Shown piece by piece: positions 44,826-54,784 of a stretch of 64,000 nucleotides of DNA. The stretch is from Wenzhouxiangella marina. GTDB taxonomy: Bacteria; Pseudomonadota; Gammaproteobacteria; Xanthomonadales; Wenzhouxiangellaceae. The DNA lies in contig NZ_CP012154.1 in assembly GCF_001187785.1 (NCBI RefSeq), positions 2,226,501-2,290,500 on the forward strand, read 5' to 3'. The stretch's first letter is position 1. Every line of letters starts with the position of its first letter. Under the pieces are notes generated by a model. That model worked only from the letters and a program-made list of their open reading frames with translations. It had not been told where the DNA came from and did no database searches. The translations under genes were made by a program, and so were the position numbers.

Positions 44826-45437
44826 TCAGGCGCGGGGACAGAAACAGGCCAGCGGTTCGGCGTACTTGCCGCGCAAAGCTCGCCACTCCATCCGGAACCA
44901 GGGCGCCACAGGAGCGCCGCGATCAGCCACCAGGGCATCGGCTTCGTCGAGGCTCACGAAGCGCCACTGGGCGATTTCCGAGGGATTGGGGCTGAGTTCG
45001 GATTCGCGGGTGCGGCCGAGGAAGACGGAGCAGAGTTCGTGCTCGGAGCCCAGGTCCTCGTAGCGGGCCTGGTAACGGAATTTATAGATGAATTCGAGTT
45101 CGGCGGTGACGCCCAGCTCCTCTTCCATGCGGCGCTGGGTAGCGATCTCGAGGCTTTCACCAGCACGCGGGTGCGAGCAACAGCTGTTGGCCCAGTAGCC
45201 GGGCCAGAGCCTTTTACCGGGGGCGCGCTGCTGGATCAGCAGGCGGCCCTGCTCGTCGAACAGGAAGACCGAGAAGGCGCGGTGCAGGAGGCCGTCGCCG
45301 TCGTGGGCCTCGCCCTTGGACAGCAGGCCGATTTCCTGGTCGTTCTCGTCGACCAGGATCAGCGATTCGGACTCCGAGGAGACGACGCGCGCGGGCCCGG
45401 CCTGCTCAAGCGCCACCGACGGTGACCTCGATGGCAT
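44826..45437 (-). CDS. idi: Isopentenyl-diphosphate delta-isomerase, type I (Nudix)
   Basis: A 203-residue enzyme interconverting IPP and DMAPP. The type I features are present: HRAFSVFLFDEQGRLLIQQR, WPGYWANSCCSHPRAGE with the catalytic Cys and metal-binding His, the Nudix-like RRMEEELGV, and YEDLGSEHELCSVF. The start is uncertain: ATG at 45437 or GTG at 45416, both inside the end of the HMGR-MVK gene, implying translational coupling. Last gene of the mevalonate operon. Confidence 0.92.
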   Translation of the reverse strand: MPSRSPSVALEQAGPARVVSSESESLILVDENDQEIGLLSKGEAHDGDGLLHRAFSVFLFDEQGRLLIQQRAPGKRLWPGYWANSCCSHPRAGESLEIATQRRMEEELGVTAELEFIYKFRYQARYEDLGSEHELCSVFLGRTRESELSPNPSEIAQWRFVSLDEADALVADRGAPVAPWFRMEWRALRGKYAEPLACFCPRA

Positions 45438-47664
45438 GGTAGCCGGCGGCACGGATGGCGCGGGCCACGCCGGCGCTGTTCTCGGGGGCCAGGGCGATGA
45501 TCGATCCACCGCCGCCGCCACCGGTCAGCTTGGCGCCCAGGGCGCCGTTGTTGCGGGCGATCTGGATCAGTTCTTCCAGTTCCCAGCTCGAGACCTGCAT
45601 GGCGTTCAGCAGGCCCTGGCAGACGTTCATCATCTCACCCAGAGTGTCGTAGTCGGAGGTCTTGAGCGCGTCGAGGCCCAGGCCGACCAGGCCGTCGATC
45701 TCGTCGAAGATGCGTTCGTAGATGGCCGGGTTCTTCTTCCAGGCTTCGCGCACGCGGGTCACGGTCTTGGCCGTCAGGCTCTCGACCCCGCTCATGCCGA
45801 TCACGATCGGCAGGGGCTCGGGCAGTTCGATGACTTCACGCATCGGCTGCTCGCCGGCGCGGAACAGGGTCACGTCGCCATAGGTCGCCAGAGTGTTGTC
45901 CAGGCCCGACGGCGTGCCGTGGGCGAACTTCTCGCACTCGAAGGCCAGTTCGTTGACCCGGGCATCGCTGAGCCCGAGGCCGAAGTGCACGTTCATCGCG
46001 CGAATGACAGCCACGGCCAGCGCGGCCGAACCGCCCAGGCCCATGGCGCGCGGCACGTTCGGGAAGATCTCGATGCGCATGCCGCGGCCGGTCAGGCCCA
46101 GGGACTCGAGGAGGCGCGCCATCGAGCGGGTGAAGGACGGCGGGCGTTTGGCGTCGAAGTCCAGACGCTGCTCCACGCCCCAGCGCGGGATGATCAGTTC
46201 GATGCCTTCGCGCGTGTCCTCGATGCGGGCCTGAATCGCCAGTGGAATGGGTGCGGCGATCGCGCGACGGCCGTAGACGACCGAATGCTCGCCGAGCAGG
46301 ATGATCTTGCCGTGACCGGCGCCCAGGGCCTCGCCTTCCAGGGTGTCCGGCGTTTCAGTCTTGAGCGTCGGCGTGGCCTGCGCGCTGACCGAGGCCATGA
46401 TCTCCTCGGCCTTCCAGATCTTGATCTCGCCGGAAGCGATCAGGCGCTCGACGACCGTGTCGAACAGCTCCGGCGGCACGCCGGCGGCCGTGGCCACGCT
46501 GCGCGCGTGCAGGGTCATGTGGCCCTGCTGGATGCCTTCGGTCACCAGGGCGCGCAGGGCCGAGAAGGTCTGGGCCAGACCCACGGCGCCCATCACCTCG
46601 GCCAGTTCACGGGCGGACTGGACGCCGAGCATGCGCAGGTTCAGCGCCACGGTGGGGTTGGTCTGCAGGGGACCACCGACCGTGCCGACCTTGATCGGCA
46701 CTTCCAGCTCGCCGATCAGGTCACCGTTGTCGGCCTTGGACCACTGGGTCAGCGACGTGTAGCGGCCGCCACGGGCGGCGTAGGCATGGGCACCCGCCTC
46801 GATGGCTCGCCAGTCGTTGCCGGTGGCCAGGGCCACGGCGTCGATGCCGTTCATGATGCCCTTGTTGTGGGTCGCGGCCCGGTAGGGGTCGACGCGGGCG
46901 AAGTCATTGGCGACGATGATCCCGTCGCGCACCTGTTCGCCGTCGAAGCCCTTGCCCGTCAGCAGGGCCGTCGGAATGCGGACCTTCGAGCGCACCAGGG
47001 CGCGGTCGGCCAGGTTGGACAGAATGCGCAGGAAGACCCGGCCCTCGGCGATGGTCTCGACCAGGGAGGCCACGCCTTCGCACATGGTGTTGACCAGGTT
47101 GGCGCCCATCGCGTCACGGGTGTCGACGAGCAGATGCAGCACGACCATGTCGCCGCCCGGGCCCTGGGATGGATGGATGAAGACTTCCAGGTCCTTGGCG
47201 CCGCCGCCGCGGGCCATCATCTTCGGGTGCAGGCTGTTGGCGAGGTTCAGGATCTCCGCCTTGCGCTGCAGCAGGGCCGCGCGGGCACGGGCCGTGTCGG
47301 GCACGTCGACGATCTGCACCTGGCCGATCAGCATCGGCTCCTGGGATTCGACCTGGAAGCCGCCGGCCTGGCGGGCCAGCTTGGCCGCCGAACTCAGCGC
47401 CGCGACGATCGAGGGCTCCTCGACCACCAGGGGCACGACGTAGTCCTTGCCGTTGATCAGGAAGTTCAGACCCAGACCGACCGGCAGCCCCATCACGCCG
47501 ACCACGTTCTCGATCATCTTGTCGGCCAGCTGGACCGACAGGGTGTGCCGGCCGGACTGCAGATTCTGGTAATCCTCGGCGTCCAGCAGGCCGCGGTCGC
47601 GCACGGTGCGCACGCGCTCGGGCACGCTCATCTTGTAGAACTGCGGTATCCGCGATCGATCCAT
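45406..47664 (-). CDS. HMG-CoA reductase (class II) - mevalonate kinase fusion
   Basis: A 752-residue fusion starting MDRSRIPQFYKMSVPER at 47664, with GGAG about 10 bases upstream. Residues ~1-420 are class II HMG-CoA reductase: catalytic Glu in VEEPS (~83), Lys in NKGIMNG (~268), Asp in GNDWR (~284) and His in QQGHMTLHA (~382), close to Pseudomonas mevalonii numbering. After a short linker (~420-450), residues ~453-752 are a GHMP mevalonate kinase with GHGKIILLGEHSVVYG, GLGGSAALAVA, HGTPSGLDN and LTGGGGGGSI. It would turn HMG-CoA into mevalonate and phosphorylate it on one chain. No stop or frameshift lies between the domains. It is flanked by phosphomevalonate kinase and idi. Confidence 0.93.
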   Translation of the reverse strand: MDRSRIPQFYKMSVPERVRTVRDRGLLDAEDYQNLQSGRHTLSVQLADKMIENVVGVMGLPVGLGLNFLINGKDYVVPLVVEEPSIVAALSSAAKLARQAGGFQVESQEPMLIGQVQIVDVPDTARARAALLQRKAEILNLANSLHPKMMARGGGAKDLEVFIHPSQGPGGDMVVLHLLVDTRDAMGANLVNTMCEGVASLVETIAEGRVFLRILSNLADRALVRSKVRIPTALLTGKGFDGEQVRDGIIVANDFARVDPYRAATHNKGIMNGIDAVALATGNDWRAIEAGAHAYAARGGRYTSLTQWSKADNGDLIGELEVPIKVGTVGGPLQTNPTVALNLRMLGVQSARELAEVMGAVGLAQTFSALRALVTEGIQQGHMTLHARSVATAAGVPPELFDTVVERLIASGEIKIWKAEEIMASVSAQATPTLKTETPDTLEGEALGAGHGKIILLGEHSVVYGRRAIAAPIPLAIQARIEDTREGIELIIPRWGVEQRLDFDAKRPPSFTRSMARLLESLGLTGRGMRIEIFPNVPRAMGLGGSAALAVAVIRAMNVHFGLGLSDARVNELAFECEKFAHGTPSGLDNTLATYGDVTLFRAGEQPMREVIELPEPLPIVIGMSGVESLTAKTVTRVREAWKKNPAIYERIFDEIDGLVGLGLDALKTSDYDTLGEMMNVCQGLLNAMQVSSWELEELIQIARNNGALGAKLTGGGGGGSIIALAPENSAGVARAIRAAGYHAIEVTVGGA

Positions 47665-47716: not shown

Positions 47717-48799
47717 TCAGCGCCCCGAATCCCCGCCTGATTCTGACCGCTCGAGCCGAACACCGTTCCGGTCGACCTGCATGACCAGCTCCGGAATGCC
47801 CCGCTGGGCCAGCCAGCGGCTCATGTCCAGCATGCGATCGGGCTCGGTCCCCGCGATCAGGGCCAGATCTCCGACCCCTGCACCGCTGGGCTTGGCGGCC
47901 AGACCGAGGCGTTCGGCCTGCTCCATGATGGCCGCGTGCTGCCCGTCGAGCAGATTCACGCCCATCCAATCGCCCATTGTACCCATTCTGTCGCCGTATT
48001 CGCCCAGGCAGGCCACCAGGGACGCGGCATCTCCGGCCTGGATGGCCGCGCGGGCGTCGGCCACGATCTGCGCGGCGGCGAGCTGCCACTGGCGGGCCTT
48101 GCGGGGCGTTTCCCTCGACCAGGCGCGATAGCGGGCCAGCAGCGCCGGGGTGGACGCCGGGGCACCGGTCCAGGCAAAACGGAGTTCCAAGTTCGCCGGC
48201 AGATCGAGGGGCCGGACCTCGGCGCCGGATGCGGTCGGCCGGAACTCGATCAACCCGCCGTAGAGGCTGGTCGCCAAATCGATGCCACTGCCCTCCCCGC
48301 CCTGGCCGTGGCGATAGGGTGGCAGCAGGCGGGCCAGGGCCTGATCGGCGTCCTCGGCCGCCTGCCCGGCGTGGCCGCCGATCGCCGCGTCCACCGCCAC
48401 CGCGACGGCCGAGCTGGACCCGAGGCCGAGCTTGATGAGACGGGCGTCGTGCGAGAGGTAGAGGGCCCGGGTGTCGATGTCCAGGCGGAAGGGTTCGAGC
48501 TCGAATCCGGCCTGCTGAAGTTCGAGGACACGGTGGCTGATCAGCCCGGCCGTTCGCTGCAGGCGCTCGAAGCCCGCGGCGCGACGATCCCAGAGAACGC
48601 CGGAATCCGGGTCGATGGTGAACGCGACGGACGACAGGCCCAGCTCGGGAGCACTGATGCGGCAGCCTCCGTGGCCGCAAGCGCTCAACCGGACTCGCGC
48701 ATGACGATCGACGGCCAGGGACAGGGCCGCACCGCCATCGGTCACCGCGTACTCACCGATCAGAACGGCCTTGCCCGGCGCCTGGGCCAGCATGCTCAT
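47717..48799 (-). CDS. GHMP kinase, probable phosphomevalonate kinase
   Basis: A 360-residue GHMP-family kinase: MSMLAQAPGKAVLIGEYAV, the phosphate-binding LGLGSSSAVAVAVDAA, GSGIDLATSLYGG and the late KPSGAGVGDLALI. By its place between mvaD and the HMGR-MVK fusion, and by the GxYAV-type N-terminus and SGAGxGD motif, it is the ATP-dependent phosphomevalonate kinase making mevalonate diphosphate. It overlaps mvaD by ATGA (48796-48799). Confidence 0.85.
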   Translation of the reverse strand: MSMLAQAPGKAVLIGEYAVTDGGAALSLAVDRHARVRLSACGHGGCRISAPELGLSSVAFTIDPDSGVLWDRRAAGFERLQRTAGLISHRVLELQQAGFELEPFRLDIDTRALYLSHDARLIKLGLGSSSAVAVAVDAAIGGHAGQAAEDADQALARLLPPYRHGQGGEGSGIDLATSLYGGLIEFRPTASGAEVRPLDLPANLELRFAWTGAPASTPALLARYRAWSRETPRKARQWQLAAAQIVADARAAIQAGDAASLVACLGEYGDRMGTMGDWMGVNLLDGQHAAIMEQAERLGLAAKPSGAGVGDLALIAGTEPDRMLDMSRWLAQRGIPELVMQVDRNGVRLERSESGGDSGR

Positions 48800-49773
48800 G
48801 GCAGCTCGACGGCGCCGGGCCCGAGCCGCGCCTCGAGCACACGGTGCACTCCGGGCAGTTCCGCCAGCGCGTCGGCGACGGGCCGGCGATGCTCGGGCCG
48901 GCAGATCGCCTTGACCTGTGGGCCGGCATCGACGGTGAAGAAGACGTCCAGCCCGGAGGCGCGCAGCTCGCGAACCCGCTCCAGGCAGGCCAGCGTGGCC
49001 GGCTTGAAGTAGATCACCCCCGGCCGCGCGGCCAGGGCCGAGGCATGCATGGCCAGGGCGCTGGCTTCGGCCACGTCGGCGAGGGCGGCGAAATCCCTGG
49101 AGAGGATCGATTCGCGCGCCAGCGCCAGATCGCGATCGACCTGCTCGACCCAGGCCGGGTAATACGGCGAGGTCCGCATGGTGCGGCGCATGCCCTCGCT
49201 CGAGGACACGGACTTGGCCTCTTCGCTGGTCACGGCCACCACGACCTCGAGGGGCCAGTGCTCGGCCGGGGCCAGAGGGCGAGCCACGCAGTCGCTGCCG
49301 TCGGGCGCTTCGCCGCGCGCCATCTCGACGAAACCGCCGAAGATCGAGCGCGCGGCCGAGCCCGAACCCTGGCGCGCCAGCTCCGACAGGCGAGTCGGCG
49401 AGAGATCGAGGCCGAAGGCCCGGTTGGCCGCCACCGCCAGCGCCGCAAAGGCCGAGGCGGAGGACGCCAGGCCCGCCGAGGTCGGGAAGCTGTTGCTGCT
49501 GATGACCTGAAAATGGCCTTCGCGACCGGCCAGGGCGCGGAAGCGGTCGAGAAAGGCGCGCAGACGCGCCGGGTCGGCCGGGCGACCGTTGAGTTCGAAC
49601 TGATCGGCCGCCAGGCTCGGGTCGGGAACGAGCCGGGTGTCCGTATGCAGCGTGTCGAGGGTGATCGACAGGGAGCCGGTTGCCGGCAGGTTCAGGGCCT
49701 CGTCACGCTTGCCCCAGTACTTGACCAGCGCGATGTTGGAACCGGCTCGCGCCCTCGCCTCCTGGATGTCCAT
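48796..49773 (-). CDS. mvaD: Diphosphomevalonate decarboxylase
   Basis: A 325-residue GHMP-fold enzyme turning mevalonate diphosphate into IPP. The N-terminal signature SNIALVKYWGKRDEALNLPA is followed by SLSITLD, FPTSAGLASSASAFAALAVA, the phosphate loop QGSGSAARSIFGGFVEM and, late, TVDAGPQVKAIC with the catalytic Asp. First gene of the mevalonate set; 55 bases separate it from the histidine kinase gene on the same strand. Confidence 0.93.
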   Translation of the reverse strand: MDIQEARARAGSNIALVKYWGKRDEALNLPATGSLSITLDTLHTDTRLVPDPSLAADQFELNGRPADPARLRAFLDRFRALAGREGHFQVISSNSFPTSAGLASSASAFAALAVAANRAFGLDLSPTRLSELARQGSGSAARSIFGGFVEMARGEAPDGSDCVARPLAPAEHWPLEVVVAVTSEEAKSVSSSEGMRRTMRTSPYYPAWVEQVDRDLALARESILSRDFAALADVAEASALAMHASALAARPGVIYFKPATLACLERVRELRASGLDVFFTVDAGPQVKAICRPEHRRPVADALAELPGVHRVLEARLGPGAVELP

Positions 49774-49828: not shown

Positions 49829-51160
49829 TCAGTCCGAGGCGTCGCTGAAGCGCTTGAAGCTGGCGCGCGGGAATCCGACGCGAATCTCGGTACCCACTCC
49901 GATCTCGGAGTCGGCCTGCAGGGACCAGCCGAAGCGGTCGCAGAGACGGCGGACGATCGCCAGGCCAAGGCCATAGCCTTCGTTGCTGCGGTCATGACCG
50001 CGGTAGAAGGGCTCGAACATGCGCTCAAGATCCGCCTCGCTCATGCCGCAACCCGTGTCCTTGATCGACACGCCCCGGTGATCGATGAACACATCGACCC
50101 GCCCCTTTTCCGTATAGGTCAGGGCGTTGCGCAGCAGATTGGTGAAGACGATAGCCAGCACCCGCTCCGGCGCGTCGACCTCGAGCAGGCCGCGCGCGTG
50201 CATGCCGACGCTGACCTCTGCCTTGGGCACGGCGCGAACCACCTGATCGAAGATCTCGGCGACCAGGTCGTTCAGCACGACCGAAGACCAGTTCAGTTTC
50301 GATTCGGTCTCGCGGGCCAGGATCAGCAGGGTCTCGACCAGGGCCTCCATGTCGCGTACCGTGCGCGACATCCGCTCGACAACCCGCTGCCGACGCTCGG
50401 GCTCATCGAATTTCTTGAGCAGGTCCAGATTGGCCTTGACCACCGCCAGGGGCGTGCGCAGTTCATGGCTGGCGTTGCGGGTGAAGTTCCGCTCGCGCTG
50501 GATGAAGGCCTCCATGCGCTCGATGAACTGGTTGAAGGCATTGACCAGGGTCACGACCTCCGAATCCGAGGTGTCACCGAAGGATTCCGGGCAGAATTTC
50601 TCGAACTGGCCCGAGTTGAAGTCGTAGTTGCGCACCATCTCGGACAGCTGCACGACCGTCGACACGGCCCGCCGCGACAGCACGTAGCCGATCCAGGTCA
50701 GCAGATAGATCAGCAGCAGGACCGCGGTCAGGGGCGCGATACCGAAGTAGAAGGCCAGCGAACTGACCTGCACCTCGTCGAAGACCAGGTAGAGCCGGTC
50801 GGCCCCCTCGTCGCTGACGAAGACGACCGGCCGCTCACCGTTGCCCGCATCGACGCGCTGGAAGCCGGCCGGGACGTCCTGCAGCCATTCGGGGACACCG
50901 TGGAAGCTGCTCTGGCGCGCCATGTAACCGCGCAGATTGTTGGTGTTGGGCAGCGGAAAGCTGTGGTCTTCGCGGTAGTTGGCCCAGAAATGCTCGGCCT
51001 CGCCATTGAGCGCTTCCTGCACCAGCACCTTCTCGACCACCAGAGCGGCCCCGTAGACGCCCATCACCGTGGCCACGCTGATGGCCAGCACCTGCAGCAC
51101 GAACACCCGAACCAGCTTGGTATTCAAGCCTCCTTTCAGGATTCGGTTCAGGTAGGACAT
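49829..51160 (-). CDS. Sensor histidine kinase without adjacent regulator
   Basis: A 443-residue membrane kinase: a transmembrane segment at ~18-38 (LVRVFVLQVLAISVATVMGV), a periplasmic domain of about 110 residues, a second segment (FGIAPLTAVLLLIYLLTWIG), a HAMP-like linker, the HisKA box TRNASHELRTPLAVVKANLD and HATPase motifs (FTNLLRNALTYTE, IKDTGCGMSEADLERMFEPF, GYGLGLAIVRRLCDRF). It follows the CFA-like methyltransferase after 6 bases, so it belongs to the lipid-remodelling operon. Its partner may be the orphan regulator at 31110-31811. The ligand is unknown, but a membrane or lipid cue is plausible. Confidence 0.85.
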   Translation of the reverse strand: MSYLNRILKGGLNTKLVRVFVLQVLAISVATVMGVYGAALVVEKVLVQEALNGEAEHFWANYREDHSFPLPNTNNLRGYMARQSSFHGVPEWLQDVPAGFQRVDAGNGERPVVFVSDEGADRLYLVFDEVQVSSLAFYFGIAPLTAVLLLIYLLTWIGYVLSRRAVSTVVQLSEMVRNYDFNSGQFEKFCPESFGDTSDSEVVTLVNAFNQFIERMEAFIQRERNFTRNASHELRTPLAVVKANLDLLKKFDEPERRQRVVERMSRTVRDMEALVETLLILARETESKLNWSSVVLNDLVAEIFDQVVRAVPKAEVSVGMHARGLLEVDAPERVLAIVFTNLLRNALTYTEKGRVDVFIDHRGVSIKDTGCGMSEADLERMFEPFYRGHDRSNEGYGLGLAIVRRLCDRFGWSLQADSEIGVGTEIRVGFPRASFKRFSDASD

Positions 51161-51166
51161 GGTTGA

Positions 51167-52192
51167 TCAGCGACGTCGGAAACGATAGTGGGCCACCATC
51201 CAGGCATTGCCCTCATCGTAGCCGAACAGCTCCTCGCAGGCCATGAAGAACATGCGCCAGCGCTGGCGCCAGATCTCGCCGTCGTCGCCATAGATCTGCT
51301 GCATGACCTGACGGCACTCGTCCTTGCGCGCGTCCATGTTGTCCAGCCAGGCTCGCGAGGTACGGGCGTAATGGGTCCCGGAGTAGAGCTTGCGATCTTC
51401 CAGCGCCAGGTCGTCCTGGAAGTGCAGCAGGGTGTCTGCCGCCGGCATCAGGCCGCCGGTAAAGAAATACCGCCCCATCCAGTTGTCCTCCCCCTCGGTC
51501 TCGAAGGGATAGGCCAGGTAGCGGTGACAGAAGATGTGCACGAACAGCTTGCCTTCCGGCTTCAGCCAGCCGGCGATCCGGTTCAGCAGGACGCGGTAGT
51601 TGCGCACGTGCTCGAACATCTCCACGGACACGACGCGATCGAAGCGTTCGTCGAGTTCGAGCTGATTGACATCGCAGGTCCGGATCTCGACGTTGTGCAG
51701 ACCGAGCTCGAGGGCGCGCTGCTCGATGAAGGCGCGCTGCGAGGCGGAGTTGCTGACCGCCGTGATGCGACTGTTCGGGTACTGGCTGGCCATCCATAGC
51801 GTCAGCGAGCCCCAACCGCAGCCGAGTTCGAGCACTCGCTGACCATCGGCCAGCTCGGCCTGCGCGCAGCTGGCCTCGAGCATCGCCTCTTCGGCAGTGT
51901 CCAGATCATTGACACCCGGCGGATAGAGGGCGCTGGAGTACTTCAACCGCGCCCCCAGGGCCAGCTTGTAGAAGGCGGCCGGCACCTCGTAGTGCTGTTC
52001 GTTCGCCGCATCGGTCTCGATGGCGATCGCCGATTCGGCCAGTTCGTTCATCAGGGCCTGGGTACGCTCGGCCTGCTGTTCGGGGTCGCGATCGAATTCG
52101 TCGCGCAGGCGCTGGGCCAGCAGTCGACGAATCCCTCGTCGGATCAACCAGTCGGGGGCCAGGCCTTTCTCGGCCAGTTCGATCGGGGTCAT
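51167..52192 (-). CDS. CFA-like SAM-dependent methyltransferase (second of pair)
   Basis: A 341-residue protein of the cyclopropane-fatty-acid synthase superfamily. It has HYEVPAAFYKLALGARLKYS, SAM motif VLELGCGWGSLTLWMASQYP, RVVSVEMFEHVRNYRVLLNR and FVHIFCHRYLAYPFE. It differs from the CFA synthase at 52758-54035 and resembles the group that methylates unsaturated acyl chains or sugars rather than closing a cyclopropane ring. The start at 52192 overlaps the DUF2878 stop by ATGA. The exact product is unknown. Confidence 0.8.
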   Translation of the reverse strand: MTPIELAEKGLAPDWLIRRGIRRLLAQRLRDEFDRDPEQQAERTQALMNELAESAIAIETDAANEQHYEVPAAFYKLALGARLKYSSALYPPGVNDLDTAEEAMLEASCAQAELADGQRVLELGCGWGSLTLWMASQYPNSRITAVSNSASQRAFIEQRALELGLHNVEIRTCDVNQLELDERFDRVVSVEMFEHVRNYRVLLNRIAGWLKPEGKLFVHIFCHRYLAYPFETEGEDNWMGRYFFTGGLMPAADTLLHFQDDLALEDRKLYSGTHYARTSRAWLDNMDARKDECRQVMQQIYGDDGEIWRQRWRMFFMACEELFGYDEGNAWMVAHYRFRRR

Positions 52193-52758
52193 TCGGTTTC
52201 GACTCCAGCGTTGTCGGTGGTCAGGGATGATCGAGCCGCCGAAGCCTTCACTTCGGGTCGACTCAACCAGAACAGGAAGGGCAGCAGCAGCGCCCAGCTC
52301 AGGCCGACCGCCAGCACCACGGCCCAGGCCGGCGCCAGCCATTCGACCGCGCCGAAGCGAGCCCCGGCAAAATAGGACATGGGCGAGCCGATGCCACCCA
52401 GCAGTCCGATCAGCAGCAGGCGCTGCTTGAAGGCCGCCATCGAGTGGTTGATCACCAGCGCCAGGGCGACCCAGAGGAGCAGGATCCACAGGGGCGCGAA
52501 GCCCGGCGACGGCCAGGCGGTGCTGTAGGCAAGGACGCCGGCCCGCACCCAGAAACTGTCCAGCAATATGCCCAGGCCCACACAGACGGCCAGCATGCGG
52601 AGGTCCTGCGGGTGCCGACGCGCCGGGTGCAGCTGCCAGACCGCCATGGCACCGACCACCAGCAGGCCGATCCAGAGCTGCCCGTAGGCCGCGCCGATGA
52701 CGCAGGCCGGCCAGGCCGCCTGGAAAAAGCCCTGATTGATCCAGAAGTCGCGGTGCAT
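52189..52758 (-). CDS. DUF2878 family membrane protein
   Basis: A 189-residue inner-membrane protein with about six short helices (AAWPACVIGAAYGQLWIGLL, LAVCVGLGILLDSFWVRAGV, LWILLLWVALALVINHSMAA, WAVVLAVGLSWALLLPFLFW). The GxxxDxxWVxxGVL and HSMA motifs are typical of DUF2878, found in CFA/DUF1365 lipid clusters of Vibrio and other proteobacteria. The function is unknown. It is coupled to both neighbours by short overlaps. Confidence 0.82.
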   Translation of the reverse strand: MHRDFWINQGFFQAAWPACVIGAAYGQLWIGLLVVGAMAVWQLHPARRHPQDLRMLAVCVGLGILLDSFWVRAGVLAYSTAWPSPGFAPLWILLLWVALALVINHSMAAFKQRLLLIGLLGGIGSPMSYFAGARFGAVEWLAPAWAVVLAVGLSWALLLPFLFWLSRPEVKASAARSSLTTDNAGVETE

Positions 52759-54035
52759 CAGGCCTCGCCGGTCAGTCCCGTGGCGCGAGAGGGACGGTAA
52801 TCCGGGCCGGCCATCAGCAGGTGCACATCGCTGATCGCCCGTTCCAGGAAACCGCCCTCGCAGTAGGCCAGATAGAAGCGCCAGCGGCGGCGGAAAGTCT
52901 CGTCGAAGCCCATCGGCTCGATCCGATCCCAGGCCGCTTCGAAGCGCTCGCGCCAGTCGCGCAGGGTGCTGGCATAGCTGGCCCCGAAATCGGCCAGTTC
53001 GATCAGCCCCAGCCGCGTGGCTCTGGCCATCGAGGCCGTGATCGTGCTGACCGAGGGGATGAAGCTGCCCGGGAAGATATAGCGCTTGATGAAGTCCACG
53101 CTCTTCAGCGCCGAGGCATAGCGGAAGTCCTCGATCGTGATGGCCTGGATCAGGGCCAGCCCGTCGGGCCGAAGCAGCCGATCGATGCGACCCAGATAGG
53201 TATCGAGATAGTCGTGTCCGACCGCCTCGATCATCTCGATCGAGACCAGCTTGTCGTACTGGCCGTCCAGATCACGGTAATCGTCGAGGCGCAGCTCGAT
53301 CCGGTCCTTCAGGCCGGCTCGCTCGATGGCGGCCTTTGCGTGATCGTGCTGTTCGCGGGAAATGGTCGTGGTCGTGACCCGACAGCCGTAGTGCGTCGCC
53401 GCGTGGATGGCCAGGCCGCCCCAGCCGGTGCCGATTTCGAGCAGATGATCCTCGGGGCCCAACTTGAGGCGCTGGCAGATGCGATCGAGCTTGTTGATCT
53501 GGGCCTGCTCGAGGCTGTCTTCGTCGCTCAGGTACAGACCGCTGGAATACATCATCCGCTCGTCGAGCCAGGCCGCGAAGAAGTCGTTGCCCAGGTCATA
53601 GTGCGCCGCGATATTGCGCCGGCTGCCCGCCAGACTGTTGCGGTTGAAGCGATGCCAGACCTTCAGCAGGGCGCCGGTGACACGTGCGCCCCCCTCTTCC
53701 ATCGCATCGAGGGCGTTTCGGTTGCGCGCCAGCACCTGGACGACGGCCACCAGGTCCGGGCTGTCCCAGAGACCCGCCATGTAGGCTTCCGCCGCGCCGA
53801 CGCTGCCGCCGGTCGCCATCAGGCGCCAGAACTTCATGTCGTGGATCAGGACTTCGGCGACCAGCTCGTCCCCGGCACCGATCTCGATCACGCCCTGGGC
53901 GTCCTCGATGATGAGTCGGCCTCGCGTGATGGCCGCGGCCAGGCGCTCGGACACGCGACGCCGCAGCCAGCCATCGAGACGGCCGCCCGAGTCTTCGGCA
54001 CGAAGGCCGGCATCGGCGAACTCGCTGCGACTCAT
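52758..54035 (-). CDS. cfa: Cyclopropane-fatty-acyl-phospholipid synthase
   Basis: A 425-residue CFA synthase that adds a methylene from SAM to unsaturated phospholipid chains. It has [43 protein letters not shown] motif [60 protein letters not shown] and [18 protein letters not shown]. The ATG at 54035 is taken because it overlaps the DUF1365 stop as ATGA and gives the usual length; an upstream ATG at 54089 is possible. Confidence 0.93.
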
Positions 54036-54784
54036 CGTGAGTTCGGCGACGGATCCGGATGAGGATGAAACGGAATTCGTTTTAGCCATAGTCGAAAAGC
54101 CTGCCAGTAGATGCCGGCCACCACCTTGAGGGTGACCAGCGGAAAACGGAGGGGCATCCACGCCATCGACCGAGAGGTCATCGGCTGAAGCGCCAGACTC
54201 ATGCCCGCCCGGAAGCATTCTGCGTTCCCGTCGATCAGAAGCATGTGAACAGCCACGCGCCCTTCTTCGATGCGGAAGCGCCAGTCATAGGCGAGCTCCA
54301 TCGGCATGAAGGGGGAGACGTGGAAGTCCTTGTCGAAACGGAAGCGGTAATCGGGTCCGGCCTGATCGCGGGCATCGAGCACGTAGGCACGACGCTCGTT
54401 CCACGGGGTGTTGTGCACCTCGGCCACGATGGCGGCCAGCTCACCCTCGTGATGGCAGAAATAGAAACTCACCGGATTGAAGCAGAAGCCCCACTGACGG
54501 AGATGCGTCAGCAGGAACACCTGCCCGGTGGGCCGGAAGCCGAGTTCCGTGTGCACGCGCTCACGCACGGCCTCCGAAACGCCGAGCTCCGGCGGGCCGA
54601 GATAATCCGAGCGGCGGAAACTGACCAGATTGAAGCGCCGCAGGCTCCAGAGCCGGGAGCGCTGGAAGAGGCCCTCCAGTGCGTCGAGATCCAGCAGGCT
54701 GAAATACAGCGAATAGCGGAATCGGTGCGGGCGCGGCACGGTCCGGCGATGCCAGACCGTCCCCGTGGCCAGTGCGCTATCCAT
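54032..54784 (-). CDS. DUF1365 family protein
   Basis: A 250-residue protein starting [20 protein letters not shown] (an in-frame ATG at 54799 adds five residues). Typical DUF1365 motifs are [48 protein letters not shown] and [22 protein letters not shown]1365 genes nearly always travel with an FAD oxidoreductase and CFA synthase, and in several proteobacteria this group answers oxidative or membrane stress. The biochemical role is not settled. It overlaps the FAD gene by 8 bases. Confidence 0.88.

Follow-up and report, generated by a model that had tools for sequence, protein, structure and literature searches.

The window, the whole stretch of 64,000 nucleotides analysed here, raises the question of whether one gene of Wenzhouxiangella marina truly encodes HMG-CoA reductase (HMGR) joined to mevalonate kinase (MVK), and what such a protein would gain from the joining. 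The genome consists of a single contig of 3,675,202 bases.

A single frame for HMGR and MVK

The first-pass annotation had described one uninterrupted frame, and its coordinates on the minus strand proved exact. The HMGR::MVK gene (45406..47664, minus strand) runs from an ATG at 47664 to a TGA at 45408-45406, with 752 codons and no internal stops, and matches both TIGR00532 and TIGR00549 above their cut-offs. A GGAG lies upstream, its end 10 bases from the ATG. HMGR occupies residues 1-430 of the 752-aa protein and MVK residues 448-752, with a loose linker (431-447) between them, and HMG-CoA_red, GHMP_kinases_N, and GHMP_kinases_C are the only Pfam domains. That a frame error had merged two adjacent genes is practically impossible. 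Third-position GC is coding-like throughout the junction (0.92 in HMGR, 0.87 across residues 421-450, and 0.89 in MVK), with no break in the pattern. As the first-pass annotation had proposed, the domain pair was searched for in other genomes, and a frame carrying both domains was found at 105 of 138 loci, the window's own counted in. It exceeds 700 aa at 103 of these, and the other two (L028 and L120) are cut by contig ends. The 105 loci encode 98 distinct fused proteins including that of the window, to which the other 97 are 52-88% identical. Because of this recurrence a local frame error is excluded, and together with the GC pattern it rules out an origin of the fusion by chance or frame error. 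The top results of a full-text literature search, partly aimed at the fusion, named no natural HMGR-MVK fusion, in line with the first-pass annotation, to which no characterised enzyme of this form was known. The HMGR::MVK fusion is real, widespread, and apparently uncharacterised.

The N-terminal part is a class II HMGR domain with C-terminal flap helices (residues 1-430; 46375..47664, minus strand). PF00368 matches residues 15-387 (367.5 bits) and TIGR00532 matches residues 1-387 (403.3 bits, cut-off 259.95; model positions 19-395 of 395), and the alignment to PDB 6dio reaches residue 430. Residues E83, K268, D284, H382, and H386 are invariant in the fused set, gap rows aside, and we take the first four to be the catalytic Glu, Lys, Asp, and His of class II HMGR. 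The MVK (GHMP) domain (residues 448-752; 45409..46323, minus strand) is matched by TIGR00549 at residues 451-725 (237.6 bits, cut-off 163.05; model positions 2-276 of 276), and both GHMP Pfam domains score above their cut-offs. K453, E459, G542, G544, S546, E578, D589, and T631 occur in 98 of 98 distinct fusions, and G710-T714 and G717-G720 in 97 of 98, the remaining row being cut; presumably these residues represent the Lys/Glu of motif 1, the GLGxS motif 2, the catalytic Asp, and the Gly-rich motif 3. All 98 fusions keep the named catalytic residues wherever the position is present, and the gaps at these positions belong to two rows cut by contig ends. The earlier description of a full class II HMGR with its expected catalytic residues and a full GHMP mevalonate kinase therefore holds. 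An AlphaFold2 monomer model showed two well-predicted domains (pTM 0.54), and its Foldseek matches included the HMGR of Pseudomonas mevalonii (9dcp) and mevalonate kinases (2hfu, 6mde).

The cofactor helix of HMGR (H146-R152; 47209..47229, minus strand) was located in an alignment of fused and unfused HMGRs. Passages of PMC13370337 give the helix as (H/Y)xSxxxR in NADPH-type HMGRs and as Dx(V/L)xxxL in the NADH-type HMGRs of the P. mevalonii kind, and state that some bacterial HMGRs accept both cofactors; the distinction of Asp from Tyr/His at this site also appears in a passage of PMC12292504. The NADH-type helix was sought in the window HMGR and not found; H146 and R152 are present instead and fit two of the three positions of the NADPH-type motif. 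Distinct fused HMGR domains have His at position 146 in 98 of 100 cases and Arg at 152 in 100 of 100. P. mevalonii-like unfused HMGRs have Asp at 146 (17/17) and mostly Leu at 152 (15/17), and more distant unfused HMGRs mostly have Ala at 146 (9/11). Since Arg at 152 is present in all 11 of these distant HMGRs, it does not distinguish the fused form. The fused cofactor helix looks NADPH-like, unlike that of the nearest unfused relatives, and we infer a preference for NADPH. It should be noted that cofactor use is a prediction, because at the Ser of the NADPH motif the window protein has K, and the fused set as a whole has K, N, Q, or R. NCBIfam names this HMGR family 'degradative'.

The mevalonate operon of the genome

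The fusion gene is the third gene of an operon with the order MDD, PMK-like, HMGR::MVK, IDI. The diphosphomevalonate decarboxylase gene (MDD; 48796..49773, minus strand) matches TIGR01240 with 279.9 bits (cut-off 171.35) and shares 4 bases with the PMK-like gene. The latter, a GHMP kinase gene upstream of the fusion (47717..48799, minus strand), has TIGR01220 as its best model at 113.1 bits, under the cut-off of 165.7; together with its operon position, this makes it a probable phosphomevalonate kinase. The type 1 isopentenyl-diphosphate isomerase (IDI) lies in an open frame at 44826..45521 (minus strand), with matches above the cut-offs of NF002995 (177.8 bits) and TIGR02150 (162.9 bits). Its start is uncertain and is perhaps a GTG at 45416, overlapping the 3' end of the fusion gene. 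HMG-CoA synthase is encoded elsewhere in the genome (362.5 bits, cut-off 360.35).

No second HMGR or MVK was found in the genome: a search with the whole fusion protein added only the neighbouring PMK-like gene (33% identity over 105 residues), and a class I HMGR model matched inside the fusion only. In addition, searches for two enzymes of the MEP route, Dxr and IspG, gave no match to either. Judging from these searches, the mevalonate operon looks like the genome's only isoprenoid-precursor pathway. Both domains of the fusion are probably active and needed, because the genome has no other match to HMGR, MVK, Dxr, or IspG. A catabolic role for the HMGR was also considered, and was rejected in view of the operon, the missing Dxr and IspG, and the cofactor helix.

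Occurrence and origin of the fusion

The full fusion was present in 35 of 61 genomes (the source genome and 60 relatives). None of these 35 had a Dxr or IspG match, and both enzymes were matched in 22 of the 26 genomes without a full fusion, 21 of them above the cut-off in each search. Among 50 fusion genomes hand-chosen from the 80 named loci, for which no completeness values are given, nine had Dxr above the cut-off, five a weaker Dxr-like match, one a trivial match, and 35 none. Since some carriers keep Dxr, the fusion is not the sole isoprenoid route in every carrier. The named relatives are the best 80 of 582; no unfused forms occurred among them, which says little about the wider set.

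A sample of the class yielded matches in 29 of 369 genomes, comprising nine full fusions, one cut (G233), and 19 with HMGR only. The class-wide MVK search matched 30 of 275 genomes; eight carried HMGR::MVK at 49-100% identity, one of them (G233) truncated by a contig end, and the other 22 showed 24-33% identity. No close unfused HMGR and MVK ancestor pair was found among these 275 genomes. In a phylum-wide sample, 18 of 397 genomes matched at E<=1e-30, of which two (G000 and G762) were fused; the other 16 matches, seven of them outside the class, span the HMGR part only. One long-frame match of this sample (L048) is a 438-aa frame. Another frame (L057) has a long N-terminal part, and no kinase follows because it stops right after the HMGR match. 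Among 72,556 plasmid records 37 matched the fusion; none covered more than 80% of the query, and the twelve matches listed cover the HMGR part only.

Three of the 22 genomes with 24-33% identity (G156, G269, and G111) encode another fusion, HMGS::MVK. Like the window fusion, it joins mevalonate-pathway enzymes in a protein of about 760 aa with MVK at its C-terminal end. However, the partner is HMG-CoA synthase, and the MVK part is 27% identical to that of the window fusion over 232 columns. At one such locus (L175), the gene before the fusion codes for a class I-like HMGR that scores 268 bits, under the TIGR00533 cut-off.

Fused forms clustered together in both the HMGR and MVK domain trees, including those from metagenome-assembled genomes (MAGs) labelled as other phyla, although these labels come from the MAG records and contaminated bins may explain some. 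The trees, built from 107 fused loci thinned to 57, are quick maximum-likelihood trees with SH-aLRT support only; the MVK tree carries a long-branch warning, and its 20 'other' rows include three HMGS::MVK fusions (L164-L166). Distances of the two domains correlate at r = 0.87. Hopanoid genes were found within ~5 kb in 36 of 81 loci, as classified by a crude gene picker with one scanned representative per cluster, and loci near contig ends give undercounts; hopanoid cluster no. 16 was unscanned, and none of the 36 loci was counted by that cluster alone. We tentatively speculate that the fusion is the core of an MDD, PMK, HMGR::MVK, IDI cassette, often accompanied by hopanoid genes, which may have arisen once, moved between bacterial phyla, and displaced the MEP route in several lineages, with the kinase driving forward a reversible reductase whose cofactor helix is NADPH-like.

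Proposed function and known systems

We propose, at a probability of about 0.85, that the fusion is a bifunctional biosynthetic enzyme converting HMG-CoA to mevalonate and then to 5-phosphomevalonate for the rest of the operon. The N-terminal HMGR would reduce HMG-CoA, probably with NADPH, the C-terminal kinase would phosphorylate mevalonate with ATP, and the PMK-like kinase, MDD, and IDI would take 5-phosphomevalonate on to IPP and DMAPP. From the sequences we infer both activities and an advantage of 1:1 expression and tethering, in which the kinase would draw off the product of the reversible reductase and mevalonate would reach the kinase by simple diffusion across a flexible linker, not through a fixed channel. 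Class II HMGRs form dimers or higher assemblies with the active site at the interface, and their flap moves. The kinase is predicted to be attached to this flap, and a loose linker would permit its motion.

The first-pass annotation had suggested that the fusion may channel mevalonate, and two consecutive steps kept fused throughout a widespread lineage, whose members cluster in both trees, would suit active sites of HMGR and MVK that face each other in an oligomer and keep mevalonate from the bulk. This is unlikely. The linker (residues 431-447; 46324..46374, minus strand) is predicted to be disordered: residues 431-444 are the only run of at least three residues with pLDDT < 50 in the monomer model (pTM 0.54). 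Region 421-450 is the least conserved (mean column identity 0.30-0.39, versus 0.48-0.95 in other 15-residue blocks), and the length of the W417-K453 spacer ranges between 25 and 42 residues in the fused set. Channelling is not supported, because the linker is unconserved and disordered and MVK is elsewhere joined to HMG-CoA synthase, which catalyses a non-adjacent step. The predicted models gave no support for a fixed HMGR-MVK interface, and the linker and HMGS::MVK together appear to favour tethering or co-expression over a fixed tunnel.

The linker is also rich in Glu and Ala, and in one genome (G036) the fusion is directly followed by a separate tandem copy of MVK, as might be expected if the protein were cut, or re-initiated internally, into separate working HMGR and MVK. 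We consider this improbable, as there is no conserved internal Met (any Met between K415 and K453 occurs in 32 of 96 distinct full-length fusions, GTG/TTG aside), and 34 of 35 fusion genomes have no second match above 45 bits, G036 being the exception. A reading in which one domain has lost catalysis and acts instead as a regulator or scaffold is very improbable, given the retained catalytic residues and a genome lacking matches to another HMGR or MVK and to Dxr or IspG. If the bifunctional reading is right, a fusion of two textbook enzymes, apparently uncharacterised though present in dozens of genomes, would offer terpenoid engineering a natural catalyst that carries out two steps in one of its costly parts. 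It would make channelling, product pull, and stoichiometry testable against each other, with HMGS::MVK as a built-in comparison, and the association of the operon with hopanoid gene clusters would make a mevalonate-fed hopanoid supply testable in cultured Dyella and other isolates.

Among known systems, the class II HMGR of P. mevalonii (1qax, 9dcp) resembles the window HMGR in fold, aligned length, and catalytic residues (51-55% identity), but has no kinase joined on, and the 17 unfused relatives of its type have the NADH-type Asp in the cofactor helix where fused HMGRs have His together with Arg. The mevalonate kinases of Methanosarcina and Leishmania (6mde, 2hfs) share the GHMP fold and motifs (31-35% identity) but stand alone. 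In mvaE the thiolase is at the N-terminus, and no such domain was detected in the window fusion by Pfam scan. The mvaE of Enterococcus faecalis, named in a reference title of PMC13370337 as acetoacetyl-CoA thiolase/HMGR, is also a natural bifunctional mevalonate-pathway enzyme with a class II HMGR, whereas the window HMGR has the pathway's next enzyme as its C-terminal partner. IspDF of the MEP pathway, mentioned in PMC13001223, is likewise a bacterial fusion of two isoprenoid-precursor enzymes, but it belongs to the other pathway and joins non-consecutive steps, whereas HMGR::MVK joins consecutive ones.

Domain structure and conservation of the fused protein

The unbroken minus-strand frame at 45406-47664 encodes 752 residues, in which a class II HMG-CoA reductase (HMGR; residues 1-387, 403.3 bits to NCBIfam TIGR00532, HMG_CoA_R_NAD, cut-off 259.95) is followed by a mevalonate kinase (MVK; residues 451-725, 237.6 bits to TIGR00549, mevalon_kin, cut-off 163.05). 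The first-pass annotation had described one uninterrupted frame joining two complete enzymes, and both points were borne out. HMG-CoA_red, GHMP_kinases_N, and GHMP_kinases_C were the only Pfam domains found at E ≤ 0.001. In sequence alignments, solved class II HMGRs reach residue 430 and solved mevalonate kinases begin at about residue 447. An AlphaFold2 model based on 57 fused sequences had a mean pLDDT of 84.8, with residues 431-444 as the sole run of at least three residues below 50; its pTM of 0.54 leaves the relative placing of the domains unfixed. Foldseek matched the HMGR part to P. mevalonii HMGR (target TM 0.93) and the MVK part to the kinases of L. major and M. mazei (target TM 0.82-0.90).

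The expected catalytic residues, noted for HMGR in the first-pass annotation, are kept in all non-gap rows of an alignment of 98 distinct fused proteins (E83, K268, D284, H382, and H386 of HMGR; K453, E459, S546, E578, D589, and T631 of MVK); we take their roles to be those assigned in published work on the P. mevalonii reductase and the rat kinase. Across the same proteins, mean column identity was 0.30-0.39 at residues 421-450, and the spacer from W417 to K453 varied from 25 to 42 residues. With invariant residues in the domains and a variable joint, selection looks to be acting on both domains and not on the joint.

The cofactor helix of the fused enzymes differs from that of unfused P. mevalonii-like HMGRs, which carry Asp at position 146 (17/17) and Leu at position 152 (15/17), whereas fused HMGR domains carry His (98/100) and Arg (100/100). 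More distant unfused HMGRs (n = 11) had Ala (9/11) and Arg (11/11) at these positions. PMC13370337 assigns Dx(V/L)xxxL to NADH enzymes and (H/Y)xSxxxR to NADPH enzymes, and PMC12292504 reports that NADH enzymes have Asp at the helix site, where the four NADPH class II enzymes in its alignment have Tyr or His. NADPH preference of the fused HMGR is likely but not certain, since the first and last positions of the NADPH motif fit and the Ser position does not.

Distribution and history of the fusion

The same domain pair, which the first-pass annotation had proposed seeking in other genomes, was present as a two-domain frame in 105 of 138 collected loci; 103 of these frames exceeded 700 aa, and the 97 distinct proteins other than that of the window were 52-88% identical to it. 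An even sample of the class contained the full fusion in 9 of 369 genomes, plus one (G233) in which it broke off at a contig end; 29 genomes matched in all, 19 of them by the HMGR part only. The phylum sample contained it in 2 of 397 genomes. Among the best 80 of 582 relatives in a named scan, all 80 had the two-domain frame, one (L120) incomplete at a contig end. Carriers among these 80 included Wenzhouxiangella, seven Dyella species, Rhodanobacter, Nevskia, Dokdonella, Marinobacter gelidimuriae, and Litchfieldella, as well as MAGs labelled Acidobacteriota, Calditrichota, KSB1, Deltaproteobacteria, Rhodospirillales, and others.

In a quick maximum-likelihood tree of the HMGR domain, one branch (SH-aLRT 99) parted 57 fused rows from 28 unfused ones. 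The corresponding MVK tree, which gave long-branch warnings, separated 58 rows (the 57 fused and a separate tandem copy from genome G036) from 20 others, including three HMG-CoA synthase (HMGS)-MVK fusions, also with SH-aLRT 99. Within the fused set, HMGR distances correlated with MVK distances (r = 0.87, or 0.80 when the longest row was left out), a value reached by 0 of 1000 permutations. The simplest interpretation, though not a proved one, is that the domains fused once and then descended together. One clade of the HMGR tree holds Calditrichota, KSB1, and one deltaproteobacterial MAG together with one family of the window's class; this grouping suggests transfer, with the caveat that the labels are those of MAG records. 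In G036, a separate MVK directly follows the fusion (L168, 2467-3426 and 3416-5704, 57% identical); its nearest relative is the fused MVK of its own genome, it keeps 10 of 10 checked residues, and it is probably a tandem copy.

Operon, isoprenoid supply and gene neighbourhoods

The operon reads, in the direction of transcription, diphosphomevalonate decarboxylase (MDD; 48796-49773, minus strand), a GHMP kinase resembling phosphomevalonate kinase (PMK) that scored below the PMK cut-off (47717-48799, minus strand), the fusion, and type 1 isopentenyl-diphosphate isomerase (IDI). MDD overlaps the PMK-like gene by 4 bases, and 52 bases separate the latter from the fusion. The PMK-like kinase was 39-46% identical to its counterparts in same-genus loci L003-L016, where the HMGR domain was 88-93% identical, and is, judged from these sequences, fast-evolving. 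HMGS lies elsewhere in the genome (G000:C1:3180901-3182046, 362.5 bits, cut-off 360.35). Upstream of the operon are a histidine kinase gene (49829-51160) and two genes (51167-52489 and 52758-54218) whose best NCBIfam models, cyclopropane-fatty-acyl synthases, scored below cut-off; both kinds of neighbour recur in most of the Wenzhouxiangella loci L059-L067.

The window genome (one contig of 3,675,202 bases, 99.99% complete) gave no match to the MEP-pathway markers Dxr and IspG and no second HMGR or MVK match except a weak one in the PMK-like gene, and class I HMGR matches were confined to the fusion. These results point to the fused enzyme as the probable carrier of isoprenoid precursor supply. 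Among 61 genomes (the window's own and 60 relatives), 35 had the full-length fusion and none of these matched Dxr or IspG in profile searches; Dxr and IspG occurred in an identical set of 22 genomes, each over cut-off in 21. The remaining four genomes had neither: G008, in which a piece of the fusion lies at the edge of a contig, and three that are 65-84% complete (G014, G021, G022). The case for a sole route is looser beyond the close relatives: among 50 named fusion genomes, Dxr was over cut-off in nine, weaker in five, a trivial match in one, and without a match in 35. Seven fusion-bearing Dyella genomes (L081, L083-L086, L089, L092) comprised three without a Dxr match and four with a divergent Dxr below cut-off (204-256 bits), and the L096 genome had a weak Dxr match split in two. 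The most divergent carrier, G219, has a class I-like HMGR elsewhere (L172, G219:C3:17071-18180; 331.8 bits to TIGR00533, cut-off 441.8).

Of 81 loci (that of the window plus the 80 from the named scan, L059-L138), 78 had IDI and 62 had MDD within ~5 kb. Hopanoid genes lay at this distance or less in 36 loci, from L068 to L126 (HpnH 34, HpnB 21, HpnI 14, HpnG 9, HpnA 7, squalene-hopene cyclase 6, HpnN 5). Clusters were named from a profile scan of one representative each, over cut-off for HpnH, HpnI, HpnG, HpnA, and squalene-hopene cyclase and below it for HpnB (376.7 vs 379.25) and a partial HpnN (685.1 vs 751.85). Because the operon lies so near hopanoid genes, with HMGS also near in some of these loci, a mevalonate-fed hopanoid supply is suggested. 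Squalene-hopene cyclase was over cut-off in none of 30 genomes of the window's genus and in four other family members (G031, G032, G033, G036), lying less than 10 kb from the fusion on the same contig in the last three. Seven loci (L123, L127, L129-L132, L137) showed no MDD in the vicinity, and the neighbours of the fusion and IDI there include genes for a FadD-like ligase (7/7), enoyl-CoA hydratase (6/7), and a MaoC protein (5/7), as named from scanned L123 proteins; here HMG-CoA perhaps comes from acyl-CoA breakdown.

Possible role of the fusion and comparison with known systems

Each domain most likely acts as it would alone. The fusion would set a 1:1 supply of reductase and kinase and hold the kinase close to the reductase, and mevalonate phosphorylation could draw the reversible reductase forward. 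The kinase is attached at the HMGR flap region, which must move in class II enzymes; a flexible linker would fit and could allow this motion. Mevalonate channelling, raised in the first-pass annotation, is a guess that the evidence leans against. Three class-wide MVK matches sit in frames of 757-767 aa (G156, G111, G269) that join HMGS (412.8-470.5 bits, cut-off 360.35) to MVK (166.7-170.2 bits, cut-off 163.05; both NCBIfam), at L164:37-2193, L166:25-2190, L175:3657-5939, and L176:3172-5454, the L164 and L175 genes being the same. The order in L175 (G156) is class I-like HMGR, HMGS-MVK, GHMP kinase, and MDD, and the MVK part is 27% identical to that of the window fusion. Fusion of MVK therefore appears to have happened at least twice, once with a non-adjacent step, which weakens channelling as a general reason and favours the joining of operon neighbours with shared dosage.

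The first-pass annotation pointed to no characterised enzyme of this form, and searches of the open-licence literature, some of them aimed at other questions, brought up no description of the fusion, although a subscription paper may exist. Passages of PMC13001223, PMC12583986, and PMC13370337 do not describe it, and neither 'mevalonate' nor 'isoprenoid' turned up in a word search of PMC4921024, which surveys fusions of metabolic genes. PMC7691419 sets Wenzhouxiangella apart from Marinicella by the mevalonate pathway and squalene synthase, with 'fused', 'HMG', 'hydroxymethylglutaryl', and 'kinase' absent from the main text by word search. The account of acidobacterial genome SD22 in the consulted part of PMC5462960 reports most mevalonate-pathway genes, shc, and hpnH, and leaves an HMGR-MVK fusion unmentioned. 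The original observation of the fusion stands in full, and the enzyme is a new, widespread, and apparently uncharacterised variant of two known families.
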